The notes: a model not told the origin generated them from the sequence alone. A stretch of 64,000 nt of DNA from Candidatus Bathyarchaeota archaeon (GCA_018396415.1 JAGTRE010000006.1:1-64000), one strand, 5' to 3'; positions 38,767-62,485 are shown, numbered from the stretch's first letter. Numbers and translations: made by a program.

Positions 38767-38791
38767 CATATTTAAATTTTTTAATACTAAC
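38767..38791 (+). promoter_or_regulatory. Promoter with shared TTTAAAT/TTAATAY motif (MobB-FeS)
   Basis: TTTAAAT starts at 38771 and TTAATAC at 38781, exactly ten bases apart. The mobB start is 171 bases downstream, leaving a leader of roughly 145 bases that holds a 47-codon frame at 38848-38991. The region 38508-38766 between this site and the AOR promoter has no gene that I can support. Confidence 0.5.
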
Positions 38792-38847
38792 AATTATGTG
38801 TCAAAGGTTAATCACTATACGAAAGTACGAAGGTAGGAACAGAACAA

Positions 38848-38991
38848 GTGTTACTTAAAATCGAAGAAGGTTTACCGCTAAGAGAATTTTTAGACAGTCT
38901 CAGTAAACTTACAGTTACTAAATTAAAAGGGTGGAAACACTTTGACCAAAATTCAGATTATTGCAGTTCTTGGAAAAAAACATGCTGGTAA
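38848..38991 (+). CDS. Possible small leader ORF before mobB
   Basis: A 47-codon frame from GTG with AAGGTAGGAAC upstream; its first 30 residues (KIEEGLPLREFLDSL and so on) look protein-like, and the end overlaps the mobB start in another frame. It could be a coupled leader peptide or chance. Low confidence. Confidence 0.22.
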   Translation: MLLKIEEGLPLREFLDSLSKLTVTKLKGWKHFDQNSDYCSSWKKTCW

Positions 38992-39802
38992 AACCAATAC
39001 GATTGAAGCTTTAATCCGAGGACTCACCAAAGACGGCTACAAAGTGGGAACGGTAAAGCACATTCCTCACTCCCGGTTCACGATTGACGTGGAAGGAAAG
39101 GATACATGGAGGCATGCTAAAGCTGGTGCAGAAATTGTGGTTAGCGTGGCACCAAGGGAGGTCGCCGTTATAGAAAAAGTTGACAGCTCTAAGTATGGCC
39201 TGAATGAAATTGTTAAGAACTTCGTGGGAAGGGTTGAAATCGTTATCCTTGAAGGTTTTAAAGAATTAGTTAAAATTGACGAAAATATTCCAAAAGTAAT
39301 CGCTATCAAAACGAGAGAGGAAGCGGTAGAAGCTCTTAGGGACTATAAACCTATCTGGGCTTTCACGGGACCCATCAAAGAAAAGCCAGCAAGTCTCGAG
39401 ATACCATATATCGACATCATTAATGAGCCGGACAAACTTGTGGATCTGGTTGAAAGCAGATTAAAGGCTTTAATTAAAATTGCCCGGATTGAGGATCAAC
39501 TTCCAGGTTTTAATTGCGGAAACTGCGGCTATAAAACCTGTTACGAATTAGCCAGAGCAATAGCTGAAAATAAAGCGAAACTTGCTGACTGTAATATGCT
39601 GAAAAGCGCAGGGAATACGTTAGTAATCAAGGATAATAACCATGTTTTACCGATAAATCCATTTGTGCAAAAAATTATTAGAAAGGCTGTTTTAGCCATG
39701 ATCTCAACGCTAAAAGGAATCACGATTAAAGGAAACGAAGCAGTAATCATATCAGTTAAAGAAACGAAAACCTCTAATCCTATTCGTTTAGATCAAGGAT
39801 AA
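38942..39802 (+). CDS. mobB: MobB-type GTPase fused to a 4Fe-4S domain
   Basis: 286 residues, TTG start. Residues 5-170 are MobB: P-loop GKKHAGKT (11-18), TVKHIPHSRFTID, DTWRHAKAGA, and LEGFKEL. MobB helps attach GMP to molybdopterin or hand over the cofactor. Residues 190-220 carry C192-x2-C195-x4-C200-x16-C217, the same FeS domain as at 4017-5270 and 61510-62133. The last 60 residues form a further small domain. The cluster may sense redox state or hold sulfur/metal during cofactor assembly for AOR or the molybdopterin oxidoreductase at 57083-59609. Strong domain call. Confidence 0.87.
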   Translation: MTKIQIIAVLGKKHAGKTNTIEALIRGLTKDGYKVGTVKHIPHSRFTIDVEGKDTWRHAKAGAEIVVSVAPREVAVIEKVDSSKYGLNEIVKNFVGRVEIVILEGFKELVKIDENIPKVIAIKTREEAVEALRDYKPIWAFTGPIKEKPASLEIPYIDIINEPDKLVDLVESRLKALIKIARIEDQLPGFNCGNCGYKTCYELARAIAENKAKLADCNMLKSAGNTLVIKDNNHVLPINPFVQKIIRKAVLAMISTLKGITIKGNEAVIISVKETKTSNPIRLDQG

Positions 39803-39940
39803 CTCGCCAACGGATTTAATGAATGAGATCATGTCCGCTCCGCTCCACCTGTTCACTGATCATGCGACTTAAGATGAAAGCGTATTTTAGATAGAAATCG
39901 ATAGTTTTTAAGGGCAATAGTACTTCAGCAAACATAGAAC

Positions 39941-39961
39941 AAATTTAAATATTTTGATATG
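39941..39961 (+). promoter_or_regulatory. Promoter with shared motif (small cysteine protein)
   Basis: TTTAAAT starts at 39944 and TTGATAT at 39954, ten bases apart, about 59 bases before the ATG at 40003. Same layout as the other shared sites, one mismatch in the second block. Confidence 0.55.
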
Positions 39962-40002
39962 TATTCTCTTTATAGAGCAAATGAAAGGTGGTTTGTTTTC
40001 AA

Positions 40003-40170
40003 ATGGCTAGTTGTCAAATTTGCGGAAAAACCGGCAATGACCTAAGTTTACTCTACGCCAACCATAAGGAACTAGGCTATATTGGGGTTTGTCGGGAATG
40101 TTGGGCGAAAATGTACAACGATAACCTTTTTGTAATCGGGTCAGGTAGCTCGGGTTGCTGTTGCGGATAA
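40003..40170 (+). CDS. Small cysteine-rich zinc-ribbon-like protein
   Basis: 55 residues from ATG 40003 (an upstream TTG/GTG-type start at 39988 is less likely). Two pairs, CQICGK and CRECW, would bind one zinc or cluster, and the tail GSGSSGCCCG carries three cysteines in a row behind a flexible linker. A thiol-rich tail could bind arsenite, copper or persulfide. It has its own promoter with the shared motif. Family not recognised; real gene likely. Confidence 0.6.
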   Translation: MASCQICGKTGNDLSLLYANHKELGYIGVCRECWAKMYNDNLFVIGSGSSGCCCG

Positions 40171-40434
40171 TAAAATGGTGTTTCAACAACTATTTTTGAG
40201 TAGTTATAGATGTAATTAAGTAGGTCGGCTTTCGCTTCGTCTTCTATTTAAGGACTTTAGAAGTAAAGGATTGGCATAGCCCTGTTTAATGATTTGTTAG
40301 TTTCAGCAATAACTTGGATCTTCTCGGGATCATGTATGATAAAAACTTGTTTTATTTAATCATTCCTAGTGGCTATCGATGGGGGTCATTAATAATGTTT
40401 CATTCGCCTGTAGGGTAAGCCTATAGGAGTAATG
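40171..40434. other. Intergenic region, no gene seen
   Basis: About 260 bases between the small cysteine protein and the DUF5714 promoter. A T-rich run follows the first gene (for example CTATTTTTGAG near 40190), which may end transcription. No coding frame or RNA is convincing. Confidence 0.35.
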
Positions 40435-40461
40435 TTGTGTATTTAAATATTTCAATATAAC
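40435..40461 (+). promoter_or_regulatory. Promoter with shared motif (DUF5714-lipoate ligase operon)
   Basis: TTTAAAT starts at 40442 and TCAATAT at 40452, ten bases apart. The TTG start at 40472 is only 30 bases after the TATA start, so the message is nearly leaderless or has a very short leader. Confidence 0.55.
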
Positions 40462-40471
40462 TTAGGATGTT

Positions 40472-41185
40472 TTGCCCGAGTTGAAGGTAAACTTGTTAGA
40501 GAAAGAATATCATTGCCTTATATGTCAGCAACTTATGCAACCTACTACAGAGATTGTACCTTGTTTTTACTGTGGTAAGAGGGAAAAAGCAGACTACGTT
40601 TGTCCAAATGGGCACTATATTTGTGAGGAATGTAGGCTTGCAACCCCAGACGAAATTGTGAGGAAGACTTGTGAAGCTAGCGTGGAAGTTGATCCTCTGA
40701 GAATAGCTTTCAAAATACTGAGCCATCCAGCCATCCCAATGCACAGTCCGGTGCACCATTATCTCGTAGCTTGCACCCTTTTAGCTGCTCTAAGAAACGC
40801 AACAAAATTTAAGGCTGAACGTGTTACGTTCGACGATGCGCTGAGAAGGGGCAAACGAATCCCTTACGGGTCTTGTGGTTCTCTCGGTGTTTGTGGGGCA
40901 GCCGTAGGAGTTGGAATAGCTGTGAGCATCTTTACTCGTGCAACTACTATGTCTGATAAGGAAAGATCGCTTGCGATGCAAGCAGTTGTCGAAGCATTAA
41001 AAAACATAGCTGAGATAGGCGGACCTAGATGTTGTAAGGCAAGTACTTTCACGGCAATAATAACAGGTGCGAAATTCTTTAAGAACCTCGAAACTAGTAT
41101 TCAAATTCCTGAGAAGCCTCAATTCTGCTCGTTTATGAGCGTGAATGAAGATTGCTTGAAGGAAAGATGTCCTTATTTCAGGTGA
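40472..41185 (+). CDS. DUF5714 protein with N-terminal zinc fingers
   Basis: 237 residues, TTG start. Residues 15-55 hold CLICQQLM, CFYCGK, VCPNGHYICEEC, a rubredoxin/zinc-ribbon array. The rest is a helical domain with the glycine/cysteine-rich motif YGSCGSLGVCGAAVGVGIA and GGPRCCKAS, then CSFMSVNEDCLKERCPYF, so up to fourteen cysteines. This is the DUF5714 family, of unknown function. It is followed after six bases by the two lipoate-ligase genes, which suggests a shared task in lipoate or sulfur handling. Confidence 0.8.
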   Translation: MPELKVNLLEKEYHCLICQQLMQPTTEIVPCFYCGKREKADYVCPNGHYICEECRLATPDEIVRKTCEASVEVDPLRIAFKILSHPAIPMHSPVHHYLVACTLLAALRNATKFKAERVTFDDALRRGKRIPYGSCGSLGVCGAAVGVGIAVSIFTRATTMSDKERSLAMQAVVEALKNIAEIGGPRCCKASTFTAIITGAKFFKNLETSIQIPEKPQFCSFMSVNEDCLKERCPYFR

Positions 41186-41191
41186 ATATAT

Positions 41192-42265
41192 ATGGCGAAA
41201 ATTAGGTGGCGTTTACTTGATTATAGCGTCCCTAACCCTAGAATGAATTTAGCCGTCGAAGAGGCTATATTAAAAAGTCGAAGTGAAGAGAGAAGTCCGG
41301 ATACGTTACGTTTATGGCAAAATCCAATCTCAATTTTGTTCTCGGATCGACACTACGACACCAAAGTTAATCTCGAAGCCTGCAAAAAACATGGCGTCGA
41401 AATCGCGCGAAGACTTTCCTTAAGGAAGGTACTCTACAATGATTCTGGCAGCTTGAACTTTTCAGTTATTACTAAGGTTGAGAAATTTAAGTCCTCTCAA
41501 GATATGATCAATACGTTCACTCGATTATACAAAGGAATTGCTGAAGGAATTCGTGGGCTTGGAGTTGAGGTCAAAGTTGATCCATATGGAGAGCGCCTCG
41601 TAGTTGAGGATAAAAAAATTTCTGATGCGGCTCCATACTTTTTCCATGAAATTTTACTATTTAGTGGTACTATTTTTGTCAACACAGATTTAACAATTGT
41701 AAGAGATATTCTCAAAGTTGAAGAGATGTTGACTACTCTAAATCTTGAGCTCAACAGATCCATTGATGTTAATGAAGTAAAAGAATTACTTAAGAGGGCG
41801 TTCGAGAAGGAGTTAGATGTAGAGTTCGAAATACAGGGGCTTACAGAATACGAGCAAAAAACAGCTGAAATACTCTATAAATGGAAATACGGCACAGAGG
41901 AATGGAACATCGAAGGAAAAGCGTCGCCAACACCGGGTAAAACGCTCATAGAAGTTTTTGTCGCTCATCCACCGACATCCATGTGTAACAAGCTCATTGA
42001 ACTGGTTAAAGATGTAACGGCGGACCTTCAGGAGAAGGTTGAAATTAAGATTTGGAGGCGAGGCTTAGGCATACCTCCGGGTGAAACAATAACCCCCGGG
42101 CTTAAAAAAGCTGCGAAAGAATCCTTGCTTCCGGCGATTATAGTGAATGGAAAATTGGAGTTCGACAGGAGAATTCCACCGCGGGATGAATTGAGGACCA
42201 TTATCTTACGGGAGCTTGAAACTCCGATGCCTCCAATACCATTGAAAACGACTTTTATCATGTAG
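41192..42265 (+). CDS. Lipoate-ligase-like pseudoenzyme fused to a thioredoxin-like domain
   Basis: 357 residues. Residues 1-235 have the LplA fold (WRLLDYSVPNPRMNLAVEEAIL, DTLRLWQNP), but the lipoyl-AMP motif RRxSGGGxVYHD is replaced by RRLSLRKVLYND (73-84). A lysine remains at K142 (DKKISDAAP). Residues about 248-357 resemble the stand-alone thioredoxin-fold protein at 60125-60409 (IEVFVAHPP...PAIIVNGKLEF versus VEVFLPAGA...AVVVNGKVKL), with SMC replacing CGC. It is probably not an active ligase; it may be a scaffold or sulfur/lipoate carrier. Its paralogue at 42322-43122 is intact. Confidence 0.8.
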   Translation: MAKIRWRLLDYSVPNPRMNLAVEEAILKSRSEERSPDTLRLWQNPISILFSDRHYDTKVNLEACKKHGVEIARRLSLRKVLYNDSGSLNFSVITKVEKFKSSQDMINTFTRLYKGIAEGIRGLGVEVKVDPYGERLVVEDKKISDAAPYFFHEILLFSGTIFVNTDLTIVRDILKVEEMLTTLNLELNRSIDVNEVKELLKRAFEKELDVEFEIQGLTEYEQKTAEILYKWKYGTEEWNIEGKASPTPGKTLIEVFVAHPPTSMCNKLIELVKDVTADLQEKVEIKIWRRGLGIPPGETITPGLKKAAKESLLPAIIVNGKLEFDRRIPPRDELRTIILRELETPMPPIPLKTTFIM

Positions 42266-42321
42266 TGTTTAAGTTGGCCTTAACACAATACTATGTCTCA
42301 TTTTTTATATAGCGACATGCG

Positions 42322-43122
42322 ATGAGACTTGCAAGTGGAAAAGGGCAGATGAAAGATCAACGCCATTGGAGATTGCTCGATTCTAGTTCAAAGGATCCAG
42401 CGATGAATTTAGCTATCGAAGAAGCCATTCTTAGATGCCGGCTGGAAGGCAAGAGTCCTGATACCCTTCGTTTTTGGCGAAATCCCCCATCAGTTATAAT
42501 TGGATGCTTTCAGATTCCCTGGGAGGAAGTTAATCCGGCAATTTGTAAAGAGTTGGGCATAAGCGTCTTCAGAAGGGCTTCTGGAGGCGGAGCCGTCTAT
42601 CATGATTATGGTAACCTCAATTATTCGTTAATTATTCACAAATCATCCTTAGAAGCCAATTTGGACGATGTTGAAAAGTCTTATGACATTTTTTGCAGTG
42701 GAGTGATTGAGGGGCTCAGAATGCTCGGCGTCAATGCATACAATCGAGGAAATAGTATAATGATTGGGGAGAGAAAGATCTCTGGAAGCGCGCAACATCG
42801 ATTATACGACGTTATACTTCACCATGGAACCCTCATGGTAAACGTAGACTTACATGCGTTAGAACATGCTCTGAACCTTTCTAACGTAGAAAGGCAGCTG
42901 GTAAATCTCAAGACTGCACTTTCAGAAAATGTCTCATTGAGCAAAATAAAGAAAGCTATTGTTAAGGGCTTTGAGAAAACGCTTAATGTAAAATTCAAGA
43001 AGGGATCCTTGTCCCCAGAGGAATGGCAAGCCGCGAAGATGTTGCGCAGCATAAAATACGGTACATCTAAATACATATTCAATCGCGTTGTGGAAACCAA
43101 ACCTAGAGCAGTCGACTATTAA
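42322..43122 (+). CDS. lplA: Lipoate-protein ligase A, intact
   Basis: 266 residues; an internal ATG at 42349 after AAGGG gives a start that matches its paralogue and may be the real one. WRLLDSSSKDPAMNLAIEEAIL opens the fold, RRASGGGAVYHDYGNLN (84-100) binds lipoyl-AMP, and GERKISGSAQ has the catalytic K152. It attaches lipoate to a conserved lysine of carrier proteins; the H-like protein at 31756-32211 is the only visible acceptor. It follows the degenerate paralogue after 56 bases. Confidence 0.88.
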   Translation: MRLASGKGQMKDQRHWRLLDSSSKDPAMNLAIEEAILRCRLEGKSPDTLRFWRNPPSVIIGCFQIPWEEVNPAICKELGISVFRRASGGGAVYHDYGNLNYSLIIHKSSLEANLDDVEKSYDIFCSGVIEGLRMLGVNAYNRGNSIMIGERKISGSAQHRLYDVILHHGTLMVNVDLHALEHALNLSNVERQLVNLKTALSENVSLSKIKKAIVKGFEKTLNVKFKKGSLSPEEWQAAKMLRSIKYGTSKYIFNRVVETKPRAVDY

Positions 43123-43574
43123 AATAACTATAATAGTCTACGACTCTTCATGAAAGATACTTCACCGCGCTTTTTCTAATAGCTTGGAGATCGCATGAAT
43201 AAATGAATTATCTGGATGCATGGCGGAAACCACATCCAAGCAAACCTCGTAAAGCGAATTTCTAATCCCCGCTTCGCTCACACTACCGCTAGCATACAGC
43301 CGGAAAAATAGTTGTAGCTACATCCATTCTTCCTAAGGTTTTCTCGCTGTATAATCAGACCAGTCACCAAGCAACAAAATTTCCCTCCCTTCAAGTAGTA
43401 CCAAGGGAGAACTGGGCATGGTCGATACTCAATTTTCGTCGCAACCCAAACATACCCATATTCATATTGAAAAATTTAAATATATGGATACGATACATCT
43501 CGCTGGTAGAGGCTGATTAAATGAACCAAAGCCACGAGTTCTAAGACGTATGAACCCAAGGTTAGGTGAATTAA
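43123..43574. other. Intergenic region with promoter, weak shared motif
   Basis: The first 340 bases hold no gene that I can support. At 43475 TTTAAAT is followed ten bases later by TGGATAC, a weaker match to the shared promoter motif, about 100 bases before a small cysteine-rich frame and 250 before the permease. Confidence 0.4.
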
Positions 43575-43688
43575 TTGCATGCTGTATTGTGGAAGTGTCA
43601 CTGTGATCGAAAAAGGTGTGTTACGGAAATTCGCGGCTTGAAAGATCACCTATTGTCAGAGGAAAAAATGTATGCGAAGGGCTTATGA
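43575..43688 (+). CDS. Possible 37-residue cysteine-rich peptide
   Basis: TTG start with AGGTGA five bases upstream, good archaeal spacing. The sequence contains LWKCHCDRKRC and ends LSEEKMYAKGL, with three cysteines and one histidine in eight residues. It lies between a promoter and the ArsB-type permease gene. It may be a metal-binding leader peptide or a gene remnant. Confidence 0.35.
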   Translation: MHAVLWKCHCDRKRCVTEIRGLKDHLLSEEKMYAKGL

Positions 43689-43726
43689 GGACGCTATAGC
43701 TACCAACAGCGAAAGGCGATAGCACA

Positions 43727-45046
43727 TTGACATTAACAGTGCCTCAGATGATCTCACTTGTAGTGTTCATCGTTACTTATGTAGGCATAATGTCCAACAG
43801 AATCCACAGAACTGTTGCAGCAATAGTTGGGGCAGTTATCATGGTCGCGCTCGTCTTTCCACCCGCGGAGTCCTTAGGTCTTGTATTGCACTATGAGAAC
43901 TGGGAGACCCTTGGGCTAATCTTTGGAATGTTTACGATGGTAACCGGGCTCAGGGAGAGTGGTTTTTTCAGATGGATAGGCTTGCTCGTCGTCGAGAAGA
44001 CGAAATATAATCCAATTTACATCTTCTTCATTTTCCCATTCTTAGCCGGGTTTTTATCAATGTTTCTTGACAGTATAACGGTCATGCTCTTCATGGCGAC
44101 CCTCTCGATAGAGGTTGGGGCCTTAATTGGGCTCAATCCGGTCTCCCTCATTATCGTTGAGATTTGTGCAGCCAATATTGGTGGAAGTGCAACGATGGTT
44201 GGAGATCCGCCAAATGTCATCGTTGGAACGACGTTAGGCTATAGCTTCATGGATTTCGTCGTGAATACAGGTCCAGCCGCATGGGTATCATGGGTTATCA
44301 CAATGATTTTCTTCTATTTTTGGTACAGAAAGGGCCTTCATAAGTCGAGGATAGAGGTAAGGACGCGCCTTGACAAGAACGAACTCAAATTCACAAAGCC
44401 TAGCGAAGCCATTATCGATCCTTGGCTCTTCAAGGTTGGTGTGGTTGATCTAGGTATCGCGGTGGCATTGCTCACCACGCATCATATAACAGGATTGACT
44501 GTTGCACAGATCGGTATCATTGTCGCAAGCATCATTCTAGTATTTGGTGGAAATCCAATCAAGAAAACCCCAGAGTTTCTCGAGAAGATAGATTGGTTGA
44601 CTCTCATTTTCTTTGGTTGCCTCTTCATAGTCGTTGGCGGCATAGAGTACACAGGAATCATTGAGATGGCCGCTCAAGGCATAGCACAGATGGCTGGTAA
44701 CAACATGTCTATTGCTTTGGGCATGATAATATGGATGTCAGCCTTCCTCTCTTCTGTGGTCGATAATGTTCCCTTCGCGGCAACGATGGCACCTCTGATT
44801 AAAGATCTTTCGATGATCACGGGTCTCGAATTGAATCCCATAGCGTGGTCCCTCTCCTTAGGAACAGATATTGGTGGCAATGGGACGCCAATAGGTGCAT
44901 CAGCTAACGTGGTAGGAGTGGCAGTTGCAGAAAAGAACAAATATCCAATTAGTTGGGGGACATACTGCAAAGTTGCGTACCCGTCGATGATCATCTCCGT
45001 AGCTGCGTGTTATGCAATCTTGCTTCTAAGATATGTTGTACTCTGA
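43727..45046 (+). CDS. ArsB/NhaD-superfamily anion permease
   Basis: 439 residues, TTG start, about twelve membrane helices. Motifs GLRESGFFRWIGLLV, DSITVMLFMATLSIEV, GDPPNVIVGTTLGYSF and the repeat-2 counterparts DNVPFAATMAPL and DIGGNGTPIGASANVV mark the ArsB/NhaD/CitM-like superfamily (two inverted repeats). It could export arsenite or move another anion or Na+/H+. The arsenic genes further on make arsenite plausible, but the superfamily is broad. Single gene. Confidence 0.84.
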   Translation: MTLTVPQMISLVVFIVTYVGIMSNRIHRTVAAIVGAVIMVALVFPPAESLGLVLHYENWETLGLIFGMFTMVTGLRESGFFRWIGLLVVEKTKYNPIYIFFIFPFLAGFLSMFLDSITVMLFMATLSIEVGALIGLNPVSLIIVEICAANIGGSATMVGDPPNVIVGTTLGYSFMDFVVNTGPAAWVSWVITMIFFYFWYRKGLHKSRIEVRTRLDKNELKFTKPSEAIIDPWLFKVGVVDLGIAVALLTTHHITGLTVAQIGIIVASIILVFGGNPIKKTPEFLEKIDWLTLIFFGCLFIVVGGIEYTGIIEMAAQGIAQMAGNNMSIALGMIIWMSAFLSSVVDNVPFAATMAPLIKDLSMITGLELNPIAWSLSLGTDIGGNGTPIGASANVVGVAVAEKNKYPISWGTYCKVAYPSMIISVAACYAILLLRYVVL

Positions 45047-51689: not shown

Positions 51690-51784
51690 TTAGGCTTTCA
51701 TCTCTCCTAGATTGGTGCTTTCACACAGGATGTGACTTCCAGTTTTCGCTCACCTCTAACAAGCTTTTGCAAAGTTTGATATAT

Positions 51785-51809
51785 CAATATATTTAAATAC
51801 TTTAATATT
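51785..51809 (+). promoter_or_regulatory. Promoter with shared motif (DGC-OsmC-BASS operon)
   Basis: CAATATATTTAAATA with TTTAAAT starting at 51792 and TTAATATT at 51802, ten bases apart. It is nearly identical over 26 bases (23 matches) to the site at 60033-60058, 8 kb away. The DGC start is about 56 bases downstream. Confidence 0.65.
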
Positions 51810-51847: not shown

Positions 51848-52300
51848 GTGAAAATCGTGGCTGAGAATAAACATTGGCAAGAAGGGATGAAGACGCACGA
51901 GAACATCGTATACGCTTGCTTTGGATGTTTATCGAATACTGGAATTACAGCTGGTCTAGGAAGCCTTGAGGCTGTGAAGGAGCTCGGTCTAGATAAAGTC
52001 GCTGTAGGCTGTTTAGCGTCCCTCCCACTTGGCGTAGCTCCAGTCATCGGAAAGACCAAGGCCGCAAAGAAGATTATCACGGTAGATGGGTGCCCATTTG
52101 AATGTAGCAGAAAGACTGTTGAAGCTGCTGGTTTTAAGCCTGCGAAGAGCTTCATGCTCGTAAGGGACATCGGCATGAAGAAGAAGGCACTTCACGAGGA
52201 TATCGGAGCGAACCTGAAACCGGTGATGGATTACGTTTCGCCTGAAGACGTGAAGAAAACGAAAGAACTCGTAATCAAGGCAATCAAAGAAGAAGCATAG
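51848..52300 (+). CDS. DGC-domain putative zinc-binding protein
   Basis: 150 residues, GTG start. Cysteines at YACFGCLSNTG, AVGCLASLPLGVAP and VDGCPFECSRKTVEAAG give the DGC family pattern (D-G-C-x3-C). Family function is unknown; such proteins often lie beside arsenic, thioredoxin or redox genes. First gene of the DGC-OsmC-BASS unit, with gaps of 12 and 10 bases. A thiol-metal or arsenic-thiol role is a guess. Confidence 0.83.
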   Translation: MKIVAENKHWQEGMKTHENIVYACFGCLSNTGITAGLGSLEAVKELGLDKVAVGCLASLPLGVAPVIGKTKAAKKIITVDGCPFECSRKTVEAAGFKPAKSFMLVRDIGMKKKALHEDIGANLKPVMDYVSPEDVKKTKELVIKAIKEEA

Positions 52301-52312
52301 GAGAAAAATGAA

Positions 52313-52750
52313 ATGCAACATTCCACGTCGAACAACACAAGAAAGCTGTTGATGGCTGAACTCGCTTGGAAGGAGGGTTTATGCTCCGAGGTCAAGATGA
52401 GAGGCCACGTTGTCATAATTGATTCTAGTAGAGATGAAGGGGGCAACAATCTGGGTCCAGCACCAACCGAGCTTTTCTTGGCCGCTCTGGGAGGTTGCAT
52501 AATGATCAACATATCACGAATAGCTAGGAAAATGAGGATAGAACTCAAAAACGTCAGAATGGAAATTAGTGGCATAAAGGAGCATAATGAGCACCCTTCA
52601 TCCTTCATCAAGCTCGATGTGAATGTTGCAATCGACGCAAACACTAGCGATCGTGCAAAATTGGAGAAACTGGTTCGATTGGCTGAGGAGTACTGCACCG
52701 TTTCCAACACTTTGAGAAAAGCGGTTAGTCCAATCGTGCACTTGATCTAG
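52313..52750 (+). CDS. OsmC-family thiol peroxidase-like protein
   Basis: 145 residues. The two active-site cysteines are in ALGGCIMINISRI and EEYCTVSNTLRKA, with the family's GPAPTELFLAAL before the first. OsmC/Ohr proteins reduce organic hydroperoxides or handle persulfides using a thiol partner, often lipoylated proteins; that last point is interesting given the lipoate genes here. Second gene of its operon. Confidence 0.88.
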   Translation: MQHSTSNNTRKLLMAELAWKEGLCSEVKMRGHVVIIDSSRDEGGNNLGPAPTELFLAALGGCIMINISRIARKMRIELKNVRMEISGIKEHNEHPSSFIKLDVNVAIDANTSDRAKLEKLVRLAEEYCTVSNTLRKAVSPIVHLI

Positions 52751-52760
52751 GCAGAAAGAT

Positions 52761-53798
52761 ATGTCCGTTACCAAATATGCGGTGAACGCTTCGAAGTTCA
52801 ATCAGCTGAGCAACTTCATTCGAGACTATTATTCATACATGATCATACTTACTGTAGTTGCGGCGATATTCGTAGGCAAGCTCTCCCCCTACTCACTGAG
52901 AGCATTGACACCGTACATGTTATACTTCATTGCTGTAATGATCTGGGCTATGAGTGTAACAATCAAGTTCTCAGATCTATCACTCACCTTCAAAAAGGGT
53001 AGGCTGATTGGATGTGGGCTCGTCACAAACTTCATTTTCCTTCCCCTTCTCTGCTACGTGCTCGCAATCTTTTTAATGAGTCGATATCCGCTCTACGCTG
53101 CAGGCTTCATACTCATGGGTACAGTGCCATGTGCAGGGATGAATGTTGTTTGGACTGGTCTCTTAAAGGGAGATGTAGCGCTCGCCCTTCTGTTGGGTGC
53201 GCTAACGATGATCCTTGGAATCGTTACAATACCATTGTTGACTGGTGTCCTTGCAGGAGCATATGTGCCAGTAGACGTCTTGGGAATGCTCAACATACTC
53301 ATATCGGCTCTCATAATCCCAATCTCGTTCGGCATAATTACCCGGAACATCCTTGAAAAGAGGAGCGGTGCAAACGCAAAAAGACACCTTCCAGTCTTCC
53401 CGCCCATAGCAGCGATCATGGCTATGATCCTGATGTTCATCATGGTAGCAGTCAACATCCCGACGGCACCTATCACTGAAGATATTCTAGTGGTACTACT
53501 TGTCCCTCCTCTTGTATTGTTTCCAATAGCCTTCGGGGGAATACACCTTTTCTGCAATAGGCTCCTGAAGTGCGCCAAAAGGGAGACTGTCGCAATAGTA
53601 TACTCTTCAGGCATGAAACATCTTCCATTAGCAATGGGTGTAGCATTTGTTTCACTTGGACAGCAAGCAGCGTTGCCTATAGCTGTAGCGGCGATCTTTC
53701 AAACCCTCAACGCGAGCCTCTTCTACAAGATCTTTCAACGAAATACTCGTTTAACTTTAGGCTGTGAGGTTTTAGCTGATGCTTCTCAGTGCTCTTAA
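52761..53798 (+). CDS. Bile acid:sodium symporter (BASS)/ACR3-related permease
   Basis: 345 residues, about ten membrane helices. LMGTVPCAGMNVVWTGLLKGDVALALLLGALTMI and SSGMKHLPLAMGVAFVSLGQQAALP are the two crossed-helix signatures of the BASS/ACR3 superfamily. The Cys in VPCAGMNVVW fits the arsenite-binding position of ACR3 proteins, but the flanking sequence differs from the ACR3 at 55289-56329. Third gene of the DGC operon; exported or imported solute unknown. Confidence 0.78.
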   Translation: MSVTKYAVNASKFNQLSNFIRDYYSYMIILTVVAAIFVGKLSPYSLRALTPYMLYFIAVMIWAMSVTIKFSDLSLTFKKGRLIGCGLVTNFIFLPLLCYVLAIFLMSRYPLYAAGFILMGTVPCAGMNVVWTGLLKGDVALALLLGALTMILGIVTIPLLTGVLAGAYVPVDVLGMLNILISALIIPISFGIITRNILEKRSGANAKRHLPVFPPIAAIMAMILMFIMVAVNIPTAPITEDILVVLLVPPLVLFPIAFGGIHLFCNRLLKCAKRETVAIVYSSGMKHLPLAMGVAFVSLGQQAALPIAVAAIFQTLNASLFYKIFQRNTRLTLGCEVLADASQCS

Positions 53799-55252
53799 GC
53801 TTATTAGGTATAGCCTAGGAAATCCAGTATCACGTCAAATACTTTCCCTCGGACTGAGCTTCTGCGACGACTGTAAAATGACTCGACTTGAACATGCCAT
53901 GATGATTTACCTAGGCAAGGATAGAGCTAACTCTCTCTCATGTAGAGTCTACTCATCCTGCTGAGCACCTTAATCGATCTTGGAATGAGTGCGTTCGATG
54001 TTAAGAGATATCAATTCTCGGAATATTTTTCTGAATCAGTAACTCAAAGAGGGCTCCTAGCTGTTATGCGTGGTATCGCAAGATACGGCGTGACCAAGCC
54101 TCAGCTCTTAGAGGCGCCGTTCCTAGTCGTTTGGAATTTAACCGATGTTTGTAACCTACAATGTCGACATTGTTACCAAACAGCAGGATCGAAGAAGCCT
54201 GATGAGCTTTCGACTCATGAGAAGTTTAAAGTGGTCGAGGAACTCGCTGATGCGGGAGTGGTTTCCATAGCTTTCTCAGGTGGAGAGCCTTTAATGGCTA
54301 GAGACTTCTTCGATGTCGCTTCCAAGGTCAAGGAGGAGGGGATGCATCTTGCAATAGCCACAAACGGCACATTAATCACACATGATGTAGCGAGGAGACT
54401 GAAAGCTCTGGGAACAGATTACGTGGAGGTGAGCCTTGACTTTCCTGACGCTGAAAACCACGATGATTTTCGAGGTGTCAAAGGCGCTTTCGAGAGGACA
54501 CTGCAAGGGATTCTAAACTGCATTGCAGAAGGAATTTTCACTTGCATCGCCACAACCGTAACCAAACTCAATTTTCACGAAATATCAAAAATGATAGAGC
54601 TAGCGAAACGGTTAGAAGGTTCATCGCCTTTAACTTCATCCCGACTGGAAGAGGCGTTGACACGGCAGAGCTCGATTTGACACCTGAACAGAGAGAACAG
54701 CTTCTCAAGCAGTTGTTTCATGAAAATAACGTCGGCGACATTGAGGTTTTGAGCACAGCTCCACAGTACGCGCGCGTGAGTTTGGAATCCTCCGGAGGCG
54801 TAAAGGTGGTCCCAACCCACTTCTACCTTGGTGAAGCTTCTTGGGGTCTGAAGGTGTTAGCCGAGTTTATAGGCGGATGCGGCGCTGGTAGGCTCTACTG
54901 TGCACTGCAGCCTAACGGTGACGTTTCGCCGTGCGTCTTCATGCCGAACCTTAGAATCGGCAACCTAAGAAAAGAGAGTTTCATGGACATTTGGCATCAC
55001 AGTCGAGTTCTTTCCAATTTGCGGGACAGATCCTCGCTTCGAGGCAACTGCGGAAAATGCGAATACAGATTCGTCTGCGGTGGATGCAGAGCCCGGGCGC
55101 TAGCCTACTTCAACGATATTCTAGTGCAAGATCCTGGATGCATCCGCAACACCTCGTCCTCGGGCTCGACCTCCGTCGATTCACCTATTCGTTCACAGTT
55201 TGGCTCAGTTTCAGACATTCTTCTGCGGTCAAGTCTCTACCAGCACGCCTAA
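53779..55252 (+). pseudogene. Radical SAM/SPASM protein, broken by two frameshifts
   Basis: One gene, now in three frames. Part 1 (53779 to about 53955) encodes the N-terminal region with CDDC and an SLSC segment, starting inside the BASS gene. Part 2 (about 53955-54620) has the radical SAM motif CNLQCRHC and SGGEPLMARDF. Part 3 (about 54610-55252) has FNFIPTGRGVD and the SPASM cysteines (YCALQPNGDVSPCVF, GNCGKCEYRFVCGGC). The junction near 54610-54625 uses GTTAGAAGGT in both frames, as if a repeat had collapsed. Intact relatives act as peptide or cofactor maturases. Either a true pseudogene or sequence errors. Confidence 0.8.
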
Positions 55253-55288: not shown

Positions 55289-56329
55289 TTAGGAGAACCA
55301 ATGTTGCGTTTTTAGGCATATGTACACTAGGGAAAGCATCACCGGTACTTCTTCGAGTACACCGACTACCGTTGCTAGAGCAGCTCCGCTTTCAAGCCCA
55401 AAAAGCATTGTTGCCACTGCAATTGCCACTTCGAAGTGGTTGCTTGCTCCAATTTGGGCTGATGGGGCGGCATCTGCATATCTAAGACCGATAAACTTTG
55501 CAAGAGCGTATGTAATGAAGAATATTACCATAGTTTGTATGTACAGAGGTAGAGCAATCATTCCGATTACTAATGGTTGAGCTACTATTACGTTTCCTTG
55601 CAGACTGAAAAGCACAATTAAAGTTATCAACAAAGCCGTGATCGAGACATATTTAAGCCCCGGAGAAAATTTCGTTTCAAACCATTCGACTCCCTTATTT
55701 AAAATGATATATTTTCTCGAGTAGTATCCTGCCACTAAAGGTAGCCCAACATAAATGGCAACCGAAAGAATCATGGTTTCCCACGGGACAGGTATGCTTG
55801 CAACGCCCAAGAGGAAGCCGGCTAATGGAGCATACAGAAAAAGCATTGATAACGAGTTAATGGCAACCATTACGAGCGTATGTGCCATGTTTCCTTTTGA
55901 TAGAAAGCTCCAGACTAGAACCATCGCTGTGCATGGTGCTACTCCAAGAAGGATCATCCCGGCAGTATACTGGGATGCGTACTCAGTTGAAATAAACGAA
56001 GACCATATAATTCTCATGAATAACCAAGCGAAGAAAGCCATGCTGAACGGTTTAATCGCCCAATTCACAAATAGAGTGAGGCCAACCGGCTTTGGCGTCT
56101 TGCCAGCTTTAATTACTTCCTTAAAATCGATCTGGACCATGATTGGGTACATCATGAAGAATAAACAAATGGCAATTGGGATTGAGACATGAGCATATTC
56201 GGTCGCAGCTAAGATCTTAGATATTTCTGGGAACGTCCTTCCTAGAATCGTTCCTATGATTATACACAATATAACCCATATTGTGAGATACTTTTCAAAT
56301 ATGCCAAGGGCACGTTTTTTGGTTGCCAA
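55289..56329 (-). CDS. acr3: ACR3-family arsenite efflux permease
   Basis: 346 residues, ten membrane helices. [20 protein letters not shown] holds the essential Cys (C133), and [23 protein letters not shown] and [18 protein letters not shown] are the ACR3 C-terminal signatures. It exports arsenite across the cytoplasmic membrane. Transcribed alone from a promoter with an inverted repeat (56421-56448). This is the clearest arsenic-resistance gene in the window. Confidence 0.93.
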
Positions 56330-56420
56330 GTTTTAATCCCTACGAAATTTTTCTACAACCTTTTGTTTGCTTATTTTTGGTCATTCATATCGCTGGGATT
56401 TCGATAAAAGTCATTTCATC

Positions 56421-56448
56421 ATAACAACATATTTAAAACTATTGTTAT
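56421..56448 (-). promoter_or_regulatory. acr3 promoter with inverted repeat
   Basis: ATAACAA (56421-56427) and TTGTTAT (56442-56448) are exact inverted copies around the minus-strand TATA box (TTTAAAT at plus 56430-56436). Read on the minus strand, TTTAAAT is followed ten bases on by TTGTTAT, a weaker form of the shared motif. Candidate ArsR operator. Confidence 0.5.
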
Positions 56449-56486
56449 ATCACCAGGGCAGACTTCCTTGGCAGATCTAACGGTTG

Positions 56487-57071: not shown

Positions 57072-57082
57072 CTGCTTTCACC

Positions 57083-59609
57083 TTAAGCTTTTTCGATCTT
57101 GCACACGTTCGTGCTATACCCTACCATCCTCGTGTAAGGGTCTTCGGCAGGACTCGTCACAAGCATCACGCCCTCATTTTGAAACTCCTCACTGAACGAT
57201 TTGGGTCCCGTGTGGGTTGGAACGAAGATAACCTTTGGGTGAATCCTTTTGGTGATCCTGGCCTTCATCACTAAGCTCCCATATTTTGGCGACCTTGGCG
57301 TAAACACACGAACCAAGTCACCGTCGTTGATACCAACGCGCTTTGCCACAATTGGATGAATCTGCACCATCGGCAATTCATCGATTTCCACCAGAGCTTC
57401 ATTGACATTCTGACTCGACGTCGACATTAAATGGGGTAACTTACCCGTGGTCATTATCAAGGGATATTCTTCATTCCAGTCGATTTCTTGGGTCACGTCC
57501 TTCGGGCTTTCAGCAGGTTCCTCCCAGTCAGGTAGTCCGGCTCCATGCCACGTTTCCCCCTTCAAGTCGATGTAAGCCTTCCCCGCCCCCCATGGATAGA
57601 AGCTCCCCGTCTTGCTATTCCATCTCTCAGATGGAGTCCACAATATGGGGATGTCTGGCATATTCATCTCAGTGCCCTTCTTCCAGCAGCCTGGGCATTT
57701 CTCGAAAGCGACCTTCTCGCCCCGATAATTTGGGTCTTGTTCTATTAGATGCATTGGAGCGGGGAAGTGGATCACGCCCCTTTCTTTCACGATGTCCAGC
57801 CTTAGACCCGAGAATGGGTGATATTTTTCCGGATCCTTTGCTGCCGGTGAACCGGGAGGAACTGGCCACAAGATCATCATGAACTTCCACCAGTAATGAT
57901 AGATGGCCTCAGGACCCTGCTTAAATATGTTGTATGGCCATAAGAGGCCGTGGTTGTCGAGGTCAAACCCGACCTGTTCACCCCACTTCTTGAACTCCAA
58001 ACGGTATCTTAGTTCAATGTTTCTCACAACGTACTTGTGATTGCCGGGGTCATGTCCCATTCTTTTTGCGAGGTCAACAGCTATATCATCGATTCTTTCT
58101 CCCTTCGCCAAACGACCGTTGATCTCATCAAGGTACTGCCCTATCAGTTCTTCCCAAGCCTCGTCTAGAGAATAGCCTTCACTAAGGATTTCCTTGACTC
58201 TCTTCTCACAGTCGGGGCACTCTCTGAACATTGTTTCATCACCGAATATCCGATGGCCTAGTTCATTGATGATCCAAAGATCTTGCTTAGCCTCCCCTAG
58301 TGGAGGTACGGCTGCGTCTTTCCATTGCACGACTCTGTTAGTTGAACACAAGAAAGTTGATCCGGAGGATTCAAGGTCGGTTGCCATCGGAAGTATGTAA
58401 TGAGCGTAGTCACACATTTCGTTCCATTCGGTTGTACCAATTACCACCAACCCGTTCTTTTTTAAGTGTTCAAAGACCCCTCGCTGATCCCCAGCAGCCC
58501 GGAGAACGGGGTTTCCACCCAAGCCAACGTATGCTCTCATTTGATTCTTTATCTGAGGCCAAGCAGCTTCAGGAACCCAACCTTTCCCCCAATGGTGTGG
58601 GTCATCAGGGTACATGTACTCTGGGTACATATATGGTGCTGCCGCGGCCCACGGGATATACATCGAGGGGACCACTCCTGGCTTAAGGTTGTAATCTCCC
58701 CACCCGATACGCCATAGCTACCAATCATTAGATTTAATATAACGAATAGTCTTCCGGTATTGAACCCGTTTGTCTGTGTACTTGTGCGAGACCCGGATAA
58801 AATCGCAACCTTACGTCCGGCATCATGAATTTTTTGCGCTAACTCTTTTATCTTCCTTGCGGAGACCCATGTGATTTTCTCAACCTTCTCAACAAAGTCG
58901 TTATACTCATCCTCGTCAACGTAATGTTTTAAGTATGGATACGTCCAATCATTTTCGACGAGAACATACATTATTCCAAGGATTAATGCACCGTCAGTTC
59001 CTGGCTTGATCGGTATATATTCGCTGGCTTTTGCCGCTGTCTGTGTGTACCTAGGGTCGATGTATATAAATTCTGTACCCTTTTCTATCGCTTCTCGGAT
59101 CCATTGAAAAGCGACCACGGCTGTTTCGGCCACGTTATATCCAAAGTTTATGATAAGCTTTGAGTCGAGGATGGTATCTATAATATTGACTGGATGTGGA
59201 TCTCCGGTGACGGCGAGCCTCGACCTCCACCAGTTGCCGTTGCAGGCGACGCATCCTGAGTAGTGGGGAGCTGATTTGAATGCTCGCCCGAACCGCATAT
59301 AATTGAGAAACTCTGCTTCGCCGCAGGAGTTTCTAGGAGTAGCATATCGTGCAACTCTTCTTAGTTCCTCTGCAGTCATATCGTGGAGCGGTTTACCATC
59401 CCACTCTTTACGTATTTCCCGAAGCTTTGCCCCAATTTCATCTAGTGCCTGATCCCAGCTAATTCTCTCCCACCTGTCATCAACTCTTTTCATGGGATAT
59501 AGAATGCGGTGTGGACTATAGATATCCTTCACTACCGCCACGCCCTTCGCACAGAGCCGTACTTTAGTTCATCTCCATTTTTTGATGAACTTTCTACCAC
59601 TAAACTCAC
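57083..59609 (-). pseudogene. Molybdopterin oxidoreductase catalytic subunit (CISM family), frameshifted
   Basis: Minus strand. The C-terminal part (57083 to about 58705) and the N-terminal part (about 58700-59541) are joined by a one-base shift in a G run at 58699-58706. A second shift near 59550 separates GDELKYGS from CAKGVAVVKD. No upstream C-x2-C-x3-C is visible, so the N-terminal 4Fe-4S site is incomplete. Intact pieces include GCVACNGNWW, PRYTQTAAKASEYIPIKPGTDGALILG, QIHPIVAKRVGINDGDLVRVF and HTGPKSFSEE. DMSO-reductase family; arsenate, polysulfide or other substrate cannot be decided. With the Fe-S subunit alone, an ArrAB-like plan is possible. Confidence 0.8.
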
Positions 59610-59658
59610 CCCCTCACTGTATCGTTATAGGCTGCGGAAAGGATCGCGGGAAGTGAAG

Positions 59659-60015
59659 TCACTTAGTAGCCTCCACGGCGGTGGATTCTTGGTCTACATA
59701 TAAGATTCTAAAATCCATCTTCAATTTTAGACTCTTAGATGTAGACTGTCTGTCAACATCGATAACCAGTCTGAATGGCTTAAGGTGTTCCGACAGCCGT
59801 TTGTCGAGGAACATCGAAACTCCGTTGGTCTTGCCCCTTTCCTCAAAGTACGAAGTTAAGAATTCAGGGTCGACCGAGCCTCTTGAGCCATAGACAACCG
59901 TCGGCTGTGGCGTGCAGCATCCTGCTTGACATATAAATATCGCGGGGTCACCTTCCCGCACATGCTCTGTGACATATCGTTCCGCTGCTTTACTCAGAAC
60001 TATCTTCACGCACAA
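59659..60015 (-). CDS. HesB/DUF779-like small cysteine protein
   Basis: 118 residues from a TTG (or GTG) start. LSKAAERYVTEHVREG and IFICQAGCCTPQPTVVYG give a beta-sandwich with a CC pair, reminiscent of HesB/IscA-like or DUF779 proteins. It is divergent from the thioredoxin/DsrE operon across the palindromic shared promoter and is upstream of the molybdopterin oxidoreductase on the same strand, so the two may form one transcript. A cluster- or metal-delivery role is a guess. Confidence 0.6.
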   Translation of the reverse strand: MCVKIVLSKAAERYVTEHVREGDPAIFICQAGCCTPQPTVVYGSRGSVDPEFLTSYFEERGKTNGVSMFLDKRLSEHLKPFRLVIDVDRQSTSKSLKLKMDFRILYVDQESTAVEATK

Positions 60016-60032
60016 GCCCCCGTATTTGAAAT

Positions 60033-60058
60033 CAATATATTTAAATATCTTAATATTG
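60033..60058. promoter_or_regulatory. Bidirectional promoter with shared motif (thioredoxin/DsrE operon)
   Basis: CAATAT at the left and ATATTG at the right are inverted copies around TTTAAAT (60040) and TTAATATT (60050). It matches the site at 51785-51809 at 23 of 26 bases. It lies between the divergent HesB-like and thioredoxin-fold genes and can serve both. Confidence 0.6.
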
Positions 60059-60124
60059 TTTAATTAGTGGGGATTTTATCTCCTAGAAAGCATGCATAAA
60101 AATGAGTGTTGAGGTGTTATTTAC

Positions 60125-60409
60125 TTGGAGCCCAAGAAGGTAAAGGTTGAGGTTTTCCTTCCGGCGGGTGCATGTGGCTGTACTTTCGCTCGCTTCATGG
60201 AGAAAGTTTGGGCAGTCCGAGTTAGAAATCGTGACAAAATTGATTTTCAAGTAAAATATTCGGATTCGCCTGAAGCCGATATGTACCAAATTCTAGGCAT
60301 GGCAGTTGTTGTGAATGGCAAGGTTAAACTTCCACCCAATTTTGACGAGGATGAGCTGGAGAATGCTATACTACAGGAAATTAGGGAGGGAAAGCTTCCG
60401 GAGCGGTAA
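60125..60409 (+). CDS. Thioredoxin-fold protein with CGC motif
   Basis: 94 residues, TTG start. VEVFLPAGACGCTFARFMEKV has a C17-x-C19 pair in the redox loop, and AVVVNGKVKLPPNFDEDELENAIL is the C-terminal strand and helix. The C-terminal domain of the lipoate-ligase-like protein at 41192-42265 looks homologous. First gene in the DsrE operon; a thiol or persulfide relay to the DsrE proteins is inferred. Confidence 0.78.
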   Translation: MEPKKVKVEVFLPAGACGCTFARFMEKVWAVRVRNRDKIDFQVKYSDSPEADMYQILGMAVVVNGKVKLPPNFDEDELENAILQEIREGKLPER

Positions 60410-60414
60410 GGAAA

Positions 60415-60747
60415 ATGCGGTTAACCTTGATTTTAACCAAGCCTCCCAGTTCGTCGATTCTGAATACCTGCATGAAATTAGCCTTACTTGCAATGTCAAA
60501 CAATCATGAAATTGGACTATATCTAATCGGAGACGGAGTTTTTTGCGCCAAGGCGGGGCAAATAATGGCTGAGGATCTAGGTAGATTGATTTTACACGGC
60601 GGTGAAGTGTTTGTATGCAAAGAAGATTTAGAGGCCCGCGGTCTTGTTAAAAATGACTTAATCAAAGGCGCCACAATCTTATCAGACATTTTCGAATGTC
60701 TAGTCGATGATGTTATGGAGAAAAGTCAGAGAGTGATTTGCTTCTAA
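60415..60747 (+). CDS. DsrE/DsrH-like sulfur-relay protein (1)
   Basis: 110 residues. IGLYLIGDGVFCAKAGQ and HGGEVFVCKEDLEARGL place C44 and C68 as in DsrE/DsrH/TusB-type proteins. These alpha/beta proteins pass persulfide sulfur. It is followed by two more family members, giving a three-gene set like TusBCD/DsrEFH; the degree of identity cannot assign each letter. Confidence 0.8.
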   Translation: MRLTLILTKPPSSSILNTCMKLALLAMSNNHEIGLYLIGDGVFCAKAGQIMAEDLGRLILHGGEVFVCKEDLEARGLVKNDLIKGATILSDIFECLVDDVMEKSQRVICF

Positions 60748-60759
60748 TGGCGCGTAAAT

Positions 60760-61134
60760 ATGGTTAAGACATTAACAATTCTTTTATTAACTGGTCCATT
60801 TTCGGCGCAATACGTTGATTTCGCTTTCAAAATTATTGAAAAAGCGTTAAACAGAGGCTATTACGTTAATCTCTTTCTTTACGGTGAGGGAGTTCATGTA
60901 CCGAGGAAAGGTCAAGCGTCTATTCAGAAACGGCTCGCGGAACTGATTGATAAGGGACTTAAGGTTAAAGCTTGCGTAAGTTGCGCATTAGCCAGAGGGT
61001 ATGTAAACGGAGACCCAAATAGCACTGAAGTCTATAAGACCGACCAGTACGTCCATGGAGTCGCCATAACCAGCCTTTTTGATTTTTCTGATTGGATAAG
61101 GGAGAGTGACAGAGTGCTAAGTTTTGGTGATTAA
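60760..61134 (+). CDS. DsrE-like sulfur-relay protein (2)
   Basis: 124 residues. LTILLLTGPFSAQYVDFAFKII, FLYGEGVHVPRKGQ and VKACVSCALARGYVNGD with C72-x2-C75 are the DsrE/TusD pattern, where a cysteine in this loop carries the persulfide. It overlaps the next gene by eleven bases. Best candidate for the active sulfur carrier of the trio. Confidence 0.84.
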   Translation: MVKTLTILLLTGPFSAQYVDFAFKIIEKALNRGYYVNLFLYGEGVHVPRKGQASIQKRLAELIDKGLKVKACVSCALARGYVNGDPNSTEVYKTDQYVHGVAITSLFDFSDWIRESDRVLSFGD

Positions 61135-61495
61135 CGTGCCCAAGTCTATTATAGTGATGATATCGAAGGCGCCGTATGGGCATGAGACTGTTCATGGTGG
61201 GCTCTATACCGCCATCGCATGTTTAAATGAAGCCACACGCGTTATTGTGGTTCTAATCAATGATGGGGTTTACTCAGCCTTAAAGGGTCAACTTCCTGAG
61301 AAAACCCTTGGTTATCCCAGTGTTGAAGACCTTCTCTATGCATTGTTTCCAGACGGCAAGGTCGTCGCAGATGCATCCTCGCTAATGGAGAGAAGTATTC
61401 AGAAGGAAGAGCTTGTGGAAACGGTTGAAGTTATTTCCGAGGACAGATTATTAAACATGATTTTAGAAGCTGGAGAAGTGATCCTGACTTATTAA
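61124..61495 (+). CDS. DsrE/DsrF-like sulfur-relay protein (3)
   Basis: 123 residues. IIVMISKAPYGHETVHGGLYTAIACLNEA and VVLINDGVYSALKGQ are the DsrF/TusC pattern; no redox cysteine lies in the loop equivalent to C72 of its neighbour, so it is likely structural. It is followed by the Fe-S gene after fourteen bases. Together the trio would form a ring-like DsrEFH complex. Confidence 0.8.
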   Translation: MVINVPKSIIVMISKAPYGHETVHGGLYTAIACLNEATRVIVVLINDGVYSALKGQLPEKTLGYPSVEDLLYALFPDGKVVADASSLMERSIQKEELVETVEVISEDRLLNMILEAGEVILTY

Positions 61496-61509
61496 GGAGG
61501 TAAAAACAC

Positions 61510-62133
61510 ATGGGGACAAATGTCGACTTTGCCTCTAAGGCCGAAGATAAAAAACCTGAGCGAAAAGCTTGGGTAAGTAACTTTGAAATTAAAGGAGTAC
61601 TTCCTTGCTTTACTACACCGGGCTACATCAGAATAGTTGCCCAAGCAGATAATTCGCTAGACGACATAATTCCTATTCTTGCCTTAAAGTATCCACCTGG
61701 GAAAGTAGAATATCATGAGGAATTAAACGAGTTAACACTTAAAATATACAATAGATTGATCAACTTCTTCCCCTCCGGCAAAATCACCATGACGAACACT
61801 AAGGATCTGGATGAGGCTCGAACAGTTCTTGAAGAGATGAAAAATATGATCAATGAGGCATACGATGACTTTCTTAAACATGGAAAACCTAAATCAGAGG
61901 ATTTACAGGCAATAAAACGCCTTACTTGGATAAATTTATACAAGTATCTACCCCGAACTAATTGCGGCATATGCGGGTATCAAACGTGTATGGCTTTCAC
62001 GATGAATGTGTTACAAGGCAATGCCAAATTATCTCAATGTACACCTTTGGGGGATCAAAAATACTCCACAAACGTAGAGGAGATTAAACGAATCTTAGGA
62101 CCATATCTTCTGCAATCTTTAGGTTGGAAATGA
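61510..62133 (+). CDS. Fe-S protein with CODH/ACS-type 4Fe-4S domain, DsrE operon
   Basis: 207 residues after a GGAGG site. Residues 28-140 form a mixed domain with GVLPCFTTPGYIRIVAQAD and IIPILALKYPPGKVEYHEELNELTLKIYNRLINFFPSGKI in parts, rather like half of the ferredoxin-fold region of related FeS proteins. Residues 150-178 hold C152-x2-C155-x4-C160-x16-C177, the same FeS domain as at 4017 and 38942. Last gene of the thioredoxin/DsrE unit; may accept or supply electrons in sulfur transfer. Inferred. Confidence 0.72.
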   Translation: MGTNVDFASKAEDKKPERKAWVSNFEIKGVLPCFTTPGYIRIVAQADNSLDDIIPILALKYPPGKVEYHEELNELTLKIYNRLINFFPSGKITMTNTKDLDEARTVLEEMKNMINEAYDDFLKHGKPKSEDLQAIKRLTWINLYKYLPRTNCGICGYQTCMAFTMNVLQGNAKLSQCTPLGDQKYSTNVEEIKRILGPYLLQSLGWK

Positions 62134-62455
62134 TTTTTCCGTCACAAAAGTGGCGGTACAGATTGACGATTAATTTAGGTGATATAGTTTTATAAAGCTA
62201 GCAAGAAATCAATCCTTCAATTCTTAGGCGAGATGTCTACCGCGCAGACACAATGTTGATCCAATATTGGCTTAAGATACGATTTGTGGCATCAAAGATG
62301 GAATTAATATTCCAGTAAAGCCGCATGAATCCATCACGTAAGATTTGTCTTGTAGAGAGTGAAGATAATCTGCGTAGGCAATAAGTAGCTTGTCAATATA
62401 GCAGTTAACAGAGTTTCAAGAGAAAAACCTCGGCTCGTTTTTCGTTGAAAAGTTA
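62134..62455. other. Intergenic region, no gene seen
   Basis: About 320 bases after the Fe-S gene. Stop codons in all frames are frequent and no RNA gene or repeat is convincing. Confidence 0.35.
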
Positions 62456-62485
62456 CGATATACATTTAAATCTGTTAATACAAAT
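62456..62485 (+). promoter_or_regulatory. arsR promoter with shared motif
   Basis: TTTAAAT starts at 62465 and TTAATAC at 62475, ten bases apart, 38 bases before the arsR ATG. The motif in front of the regulator itself makes it the best candidate for binding all shared sites. Confidence 0.6.

Follow-up and report, generated by a model that had tools for sequence, protein, structure and literature searches.

Within a 64,000-nucleotide stretch of a Candidatus Bathyarchaeota archaeon genome (GCA_018396415.1, JAGTRE010000006.1:1-64000; here 'the window'), a recurring promoter element is probably the TATA-centred operator of an arsenic regulon, one that the ArsR-family protein encoded at 62503 would read and repress and that arsenite, As(III), would release. 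The element is a 28-bp inverted repeat, RTATCAA-N4-TTTAAA-N4-TTRATAY, with a TATA box at its centre. A preliminary description had noted its right half, i.e., TTTAAAT-N3-TTAATAY, with the second block taken to be a separate element between the TATA box and the transcription start site. That block is rather one arm of a dyad which embraces the TATA box. That is, the sequences around the sites carry upstream, as a mirror arm, the reverse complement of TTRATAY, at an equal distance from TTTAAA. In idealised form the dyad reads ATATCAAYATATTTAAATATRTTRATAT. Symmetry of the arms reaches approximately 14 bp to each side of the centre and then ends.

Two arms are seen at six sites, five of them in the window (38771, 43475, 51792, 56432 and 60040) and one beyond it on the same contig (C6:64351). 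The latter lies approximately 350 bp past the window's end and precedes an operon for an ArsE-type thioredoxin (Trx) and an ArsP_1 permease. Only the right arm is seen at three more sites, i.e., 39944, 40442 and, before arsR itself, 62465. All of the sites originally listed are present where they had been placed, with no mismatches to the right-half pattern at 38771, 51792, 60040 and 62465, one at 39944 and 40442, and two at 43475 and 56437 (minus strand). Those at 43475 and before acr3 (56432) had been described as weak forms, but both are good dyads once the mirror arm is counted, the two arms of the acr3 site being altered in concert (ATAACAA...TTGTTAT). A match at 35799 (score 15) was rejected as chance, as it lies inside a coding open reading frame on the opposite strand. 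Promoter duplication was also rejected as an origin of the sites, since flanks outside of the 28 bp appear unrelated.

Chance in AT-rich DNA, which the preliminary description had allowed for, does not account for these sites. With up to three mismatches, the window holds 53 matches versus 30.5 +/- 5.5 upon shuffling, and none of 100 shuffles reaches 53. The genome (1,385,562 bp in 30 contigs) holds seven exact occurrences of TTTAAATN3TTRATAY, and every one falls within 26 kb, at C6:38771-64356. One-mismatch forms number 13, six on C6 and seven elsewhere, the latter not exceeding the yield of a reversed control pattern (12 in all). The dyad pattern, with up to two mismatches allowed, matches the genome six times, and five of these matches lie at 38-60 kb of the window. 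For comparison, a background of 400 kb was taken from eight other contigs. Its 284 TTTAAA sites all have arm sums below 10, versus six sites of at least 10 in the cluster plus the chance site at 35799.

The sites were also scored with a position weight matrix, as had been suggested for scanning the genome and relatives. In leave-one-out form and at full length, seven of the nine sites outscore every background position, the failures being 40442, equalled by two background positions, and the arsR site at 62465, equalled by 21. The TATA core contributes about half of the matrix score, and arms-only tests therefore matter; with arms-only scoring, just 51792 and 60040 beat all background. Dyad symmetry is seen at 36 of 63 complementary positions versus 23.4 +/- 3.6 for composition-preserving shuffles of the arms (reached by 49 of 100,000). 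A simpler test, in which other TTTAAA sites serve as reference, gives 0 of 200,000, but as the arms are AT-rich it is the arm-shuffle figure which is the fairer. The pattern was partly defined from these same sites, with the upstream arms, the site at 64351 outside of the window, and the relatives being independent of that definition. The operator is real and is restricted to this cluster, and its sites together very probably represent a regulon.

In relatives, the element is found at equivalent genes. A search of 61 genomes, the window's own included, gave ArsR orthologues (E ~2e-25 or better) in 24, and close relatives with named carriers are from Bathyarchaeota. Around twenty orthologues, in stretches of ~20 kb, the best matrix matches lie mostly within ~1 kb of arsR, where they precede arsR itself, an acr3-arsR operon, or DGC and iron-sulfur (FeS) genes, or else separate arsR from a divergently oriented acr3. 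In archaeal loci of the genome collection, matches stand ~30-115 bp before arsR, often with a second ~400 bp further, before the next gene. Several relatives' sites read ATAACAATAGATTTAAAT, which is the arm of the window's acr3 site. Matches to the strict dyad pattern in 23 genomes were too few for counting relatives' regulons. As this scarcity results from drift of the arms from one lineage to another, sites were scored by promoter. Every TTTAAA in 33 relatives' loci was scored with an arms matrix for which the window's sites, except those of arsR and acr3, had served as training set. An arm score of at least 6 is seen at 14 of 63 arsR, acr3, DGC or FeS promoter sites versus 6 of 268 other TTTAAA sites, with five of those six preceding genes near arsR. 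Ars-type sites outscore other promoters (p ~1e-7) and all other sites (p ~2e-12), p values which are nominal as the loci are related. The aligned consensus at relatives' arsR and acr3 promoters, ATMAAYATATTTAAATATRTTKAT, is itself a mirror, with A at -8 and -6 (81% each) and T at +8 (88%) and +6 (77%), and this mirror is absent at control sites. Genome G032, with a DGC 86% identical, the long ArsR missing and the motif absent, is a single natural negative control without a statistic. Relatives' arsR and acr3 promoters are picked out by the matrix, and across Bathyarchaeota the same element precedes arsR, acr3 and genes near them. The sites form a single regulon-like set, as first proposed. In relatives the dyad also precedes genes for Usp proteins, for an HMA protein and for a GCCGPG-containing protein which resembles ArsD, albeit below the Pfam cut-off (ArsD E 0.019), all of which are further arsenic-response candidates.

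The ArsR encoded at 62503 is the most likely reader of these sites and presumably binds them. Family assignment is by PF01022 (HTH_5; 2.2e-14) and NF033788 (95.7 bits versus a cut-off of 55). In its AlphaFold monomer (mean pLDDT 92.7), helices at 7-17 and 26-40 precede the usual ArsR fold, with CzrA, SmtB and CadC as nearest solved folds. The DNA-binding domain opens with an As(III)-type CVC, C74 and C76 being invariant in 17 orthologues while the middle residue varies; as a candidate third thiolate ligand, C21 or a near neighbour, within the N-terminal extension, is found in 14 of the 17. Arsenic efflux genes are linked to arsR as well, since among 20 loci from relatives most have acr3 or ArsP next to it. 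Directly 3' of arsR in the window, at 62931-63038, is a 35-codon ACR3 C-terminal remnant, EVPVLISLVDVLPWAKKWLFTEEEIPNRVAKNAPS, which is 53-59% identical to the ends of relatives' acr3 genes adjoining arsR. It reads as the trace of an arsR-acr3 pair from which acr3 was lost, with an intact acr3 at 55289.

As judged from the position of the arms, ArsR in the absence of metalloid would bind these arms and keep TBP and TFB off the TATA box. As(III) would then bind the CVC cysteines, perhaps also C21 of the N-terminal extension, upon which ArsR would leave the DNA and the genes would be transcribed. The regulon so controlled would consist of arsR, acr3, Trx-ArsP, DGC-OsmC-SBF, Trx-DsrE-FeS and, divergent from it, the molybdopterin operon, as well as DUF5714-LplA-LplA, MobB-FeS and the gene for a small Cys-rich protein. 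The arsenic response, that is, would combine arsenite export with thiol and lipoate maintenance.

Promoter geometry (Table 1) is archaeal and supports the original identification of TTTAAAT as an archaeal TATA box. As measured from its first T, start codons are 30-60 bp away for five genes, i.e., DUF5714 (30), arsR (38), Trx-ArsP (42), DGC (56) and the small Cys protein (59), and 85-171 bp away for three more, i.e., Trx-DsrE (85), acr3 (108) and MobB-FeS (171). At 60040 the palindromic TATA box is usable both ways, with the minus-strand gene starting 30 bp away. The molybdopterin oxidoreductase gene (57083-59541) and a radical SAM/SPASM gene (53985-55252) each consist of two overlapping frames, representing real or else assembly frameshifts. 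The molybdopterin enzyme is not taken to be an arsenate reductase, since with ArrA and arsenite-oxidase models it scores far below cut-off.

Table 1. Operator sites and associated genes in the window, beyond it, and in loci of relatives.
Feature	Position	Strand	Remarks
Operator dyad GTATAGACATATTTAAATTTTTTAATAC	38760..38787	+	before MobB-FeS
Right-armed operator	39933..39960	+	before small Cys-rich protein 40003-40170
Right-armed operator	40431..40458	+	before DUF5714-LplA-LplA; weak in leave-one-out matrix
Operator dyad ATATTGAAAAATTTAAATATATGGATAC	43464..43491	+	sole candidate target CitMHS/ArsB-like 43727, 252 bp off
Best operator dyad ATATCAATATATTTAAATACTTTAATAT	51781..51808	.	before DGC-OsmC-SBF; possibly also divergent radical SAM gene 50205-51689
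Operator dyad ATAACAATAGTTTTAAATATGTTGTTAT	56421..56448	-	before acr3
Operator dyad AAATCAATATATTTAAATATCTTAATAT	60029..60056	.	between divergent 59659-60015 (molybdopterin operon) and Trx-DsrE
Right-armed operator TACGATATACATTTAAATCTGTTAATAC	62454..62481	+	weak left arm; 38 bp before arsR start
MobB-FeS protein	38942..39802	+	
Cys-rich protein	40003..40170	+	55 aa, C-terminus GSSGCCCG
DUF5714 protein	40472..41185	+	
Lipoate-ligase-like protein	41192..42265	+	with C-terminal extension
Second lipoate-ligase-like protein	42322..43122	+	
CitMHS/ArsB-type ion transporter	43727..45046	+	uncertain regulon member
DGC, OsmC, SBF-family transporter genes	51848..53798	+	
acr3	55289..56329	-	arsenite efflux transporter, SBF family
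Trx-DsrE-FeS genes	60125..62133	+	small thioredoxin-like protein (without Pfam match), three DsrE proteins, FeS-domain protein
ArsR	62503..62904	+	133 aa; two-helix N-terminal extension; C21, C74, C76
Trx-ArsP operon	C6:64393-65827		beyond window; ArsE-type thioredoxin, ArsP_1 permease
Dyads before ArsD-like, Usp and HMA genes	L065 11340-11809; L089 and L091 near 3433; L094 2822; L097 4628		relatives
Short ArsR paralogue sites	L178 875; L179 612; L057 7704; L058 8286; L091 328; L097 1746; L187 1114		relatives

The sulfur and lipoate genes can be tied to arsenic by another route. DUF5714 is rare, and among 250 genomes from the phylum only 11 have it. The order DUF5714-LplA1-LplA2 is kept in four genomes (G000, G012, G018 and G032), standing in G032 after acr3-arsR, and in G290 DUF5714 is found together with acr3, arsR and arsC. 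A short arsR heads Trx-DGC-FeS in G012, and DGC-OsmC-DGC follows an ArsP-type permease in G032. As the accessory genes thus lie within relatives' arsenic operons, i.e., acr3-arsR-DUF5714-LplA and arsR-Trx-DGC-FeS, they are arsenic-linked without any use of the motif, which supports the grouping of arsenic, sulfur and lipoate genes in the preliminary description. The open-access literature yielded nothing on DUF5714 and nothing relevant on DGC with arsenic. Arsenite binds vicinal dithiols, with dihydrolipoyl groups being classic targets, and a set of DUF5714 and lipoate-ligase genes under ArsR control would fit a conjectural maintenance function by repair or replacement. The first LplA-like protein bears a ~115-aa C-terminal extension which weakly matches ArsE-type thioredoxin (E 0.005), possibly making it a ligase-thioredoxin fusion. 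Elsewhere in the window, at 31074-32211, is a fusion of a ferredoxin (2x4Fe-4S) with an ArsR, immediately followed by a GcvH-like lipoyl carrier on which the lipoate-ligase-like proteins encoded at 41192 and 42322 might act.

Two alternatives grant the operator but differ as to its reader or its signal. ArsR might read the dyad while sensing reactive sulfur, as do sHdrR, SoxR and SqrR, in which case the regulon would serve sulfur transfer and not arsenic. In favour of this view, the targets include DsrE, OsmC, lipoate ligases and a molybdopterin oxidoreductase, and in Hyphomicrobium the ArsR-type sHdrR and SoxR control lipoate-sHdr-DsrE genes (PMC12423496). Such sensing is unlikely here, however. 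The only cysteines of this ArsR are C21, C74 and C76, and with none after C76 the second conserved cysteine of the sulfane-sulfur class, near the C-terminus, is missing; the BigR model gives 42.7 bits versus a cut-off of 155; and acr3, ArsP and ArsE-type thioredoxin are among the targets. That the reader is instead the ferredoxin-ArsR fusion (31074), a PadR protein (48047) or an unlinked factor is similarly improbable. Both named proteins are encoded in the window, and the fusion is also of the ArsR family and precedes the GcvH-like carrier, but the motif stands before neither gene, it follows the long ArsR across the class, and short ArsR proteins use a different, narrower operator. The motif is very unlikely to be merely an AT-rich core-promoter signature (TATA box plus AT-rich proximal element) clustered along with a few strong promoters, a view which draws on TTTAAATA being a normal archaeal TATA box and on the core's half share of the matrix score but which is largely refuted by confinement of exact matches to one 26-kb stretch, by arms which are mirror-symmetric and lacking from other TTTAAA sites, and by recurrence of those arms at relatives' ars promoters but not at other promoters there.

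Several observations weigh against an arsenic regulon under ArsR. The operator of arsR itself is the least symmetric, with one arm and a poor leave-one-out rank, and arsC (63312) has no operator site before it. The CitMHS start is 252 bp downstream of its site. In relatives, the motif is mostly confined to arsR and acr3 neighbourhoods, and their DUF5714 genes are without it. The spacing CAA-N14-TTR, as seen at 51792, 60040 and L065 11351, is wider than the known span of one canonical ArsR dimer; it departs from canonical CAA-N8-TTG, and some relatives permit other parsings, e.g., CAAAA-N12-TTTTG.

With arsenic-responsive control by ArsR as the preferred reading, the shared operator would assign an arsenic-response function to the DUF5714, DGC, LplA-like and MobB-FeS proteins and would tie arsenite to lipoate maintenance. 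More tentatively, a two-helix-extended, Bathyarchaeota-type ArsR might read a widened, TATA-wrapping dyad in direct competition with TBP, in a response where DUF5714 and lipoate-ligase-like enzymes would, among other things, repair or replace lipoyl (dithiol) proteins poisoned by arsenite. Repair of lipoyl proteins under ArsR control was not found described in the open-access literature, nor was an operator for any Bathyarchaeota regulator or an archaeal ArsR operator so shaped. The system offers a clean test of how an ArsR-family dimer adapts operator spacing to an archaeal TATA box.

Bacterial ArsR/SmtB operators are imperfect 12-2-12 inverted repeats, TAxAxTCAAATAxxTATTTGAxTxTA, with CAA-N8-TTG (PMC6555750). 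Like these, the present element is a dyad of AT-rich sequence, has arms resembling TCAA/TTGA, stands at arsR and efflux promoters and presumably has an ArsR-family reader. Unlike these, it has CAA and TTG 14 rather than 8 bp apart and an archaeal TATA box at its centre. Relatives' short ArsR paralogues (106-109 aa) have a TATA-centred palindrome of their own, AACAATATTTAAATATTGCT, with arms 2 bp nearer to the centre per side. It lies 24-32 bp ahead of the gene and reads CAA-N10-TTG in its best forms. Given N14 with long ArsR, N10 with short ArsR and N8 in bacteria, the operator seems to be anchored on the TATA box, with spacing by type of ArsR. The Hyphomicrobium sHdrR and SoxR are sulfane-sulfur repressors with two conserved sensing cysteines, Cys50 and Cys116 (PMC12423496, PMC10451225). 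They resemble the present system in ArsR-type control, here putative, of lipoate and DsrE-type genes, but differ in that the window's ArsR has an As(III)-type CVC, lacks a C-terminal cysteine, and has acr3 and ArsP among its putative targets. In Thermus thermophilus, TtSmtB (PMC5658604) likewise is a single ArsR/SmtB regulator of arsenic genes lying outside of one operon, there with bacterial promoters and with the genes interspersed across the chromosome.

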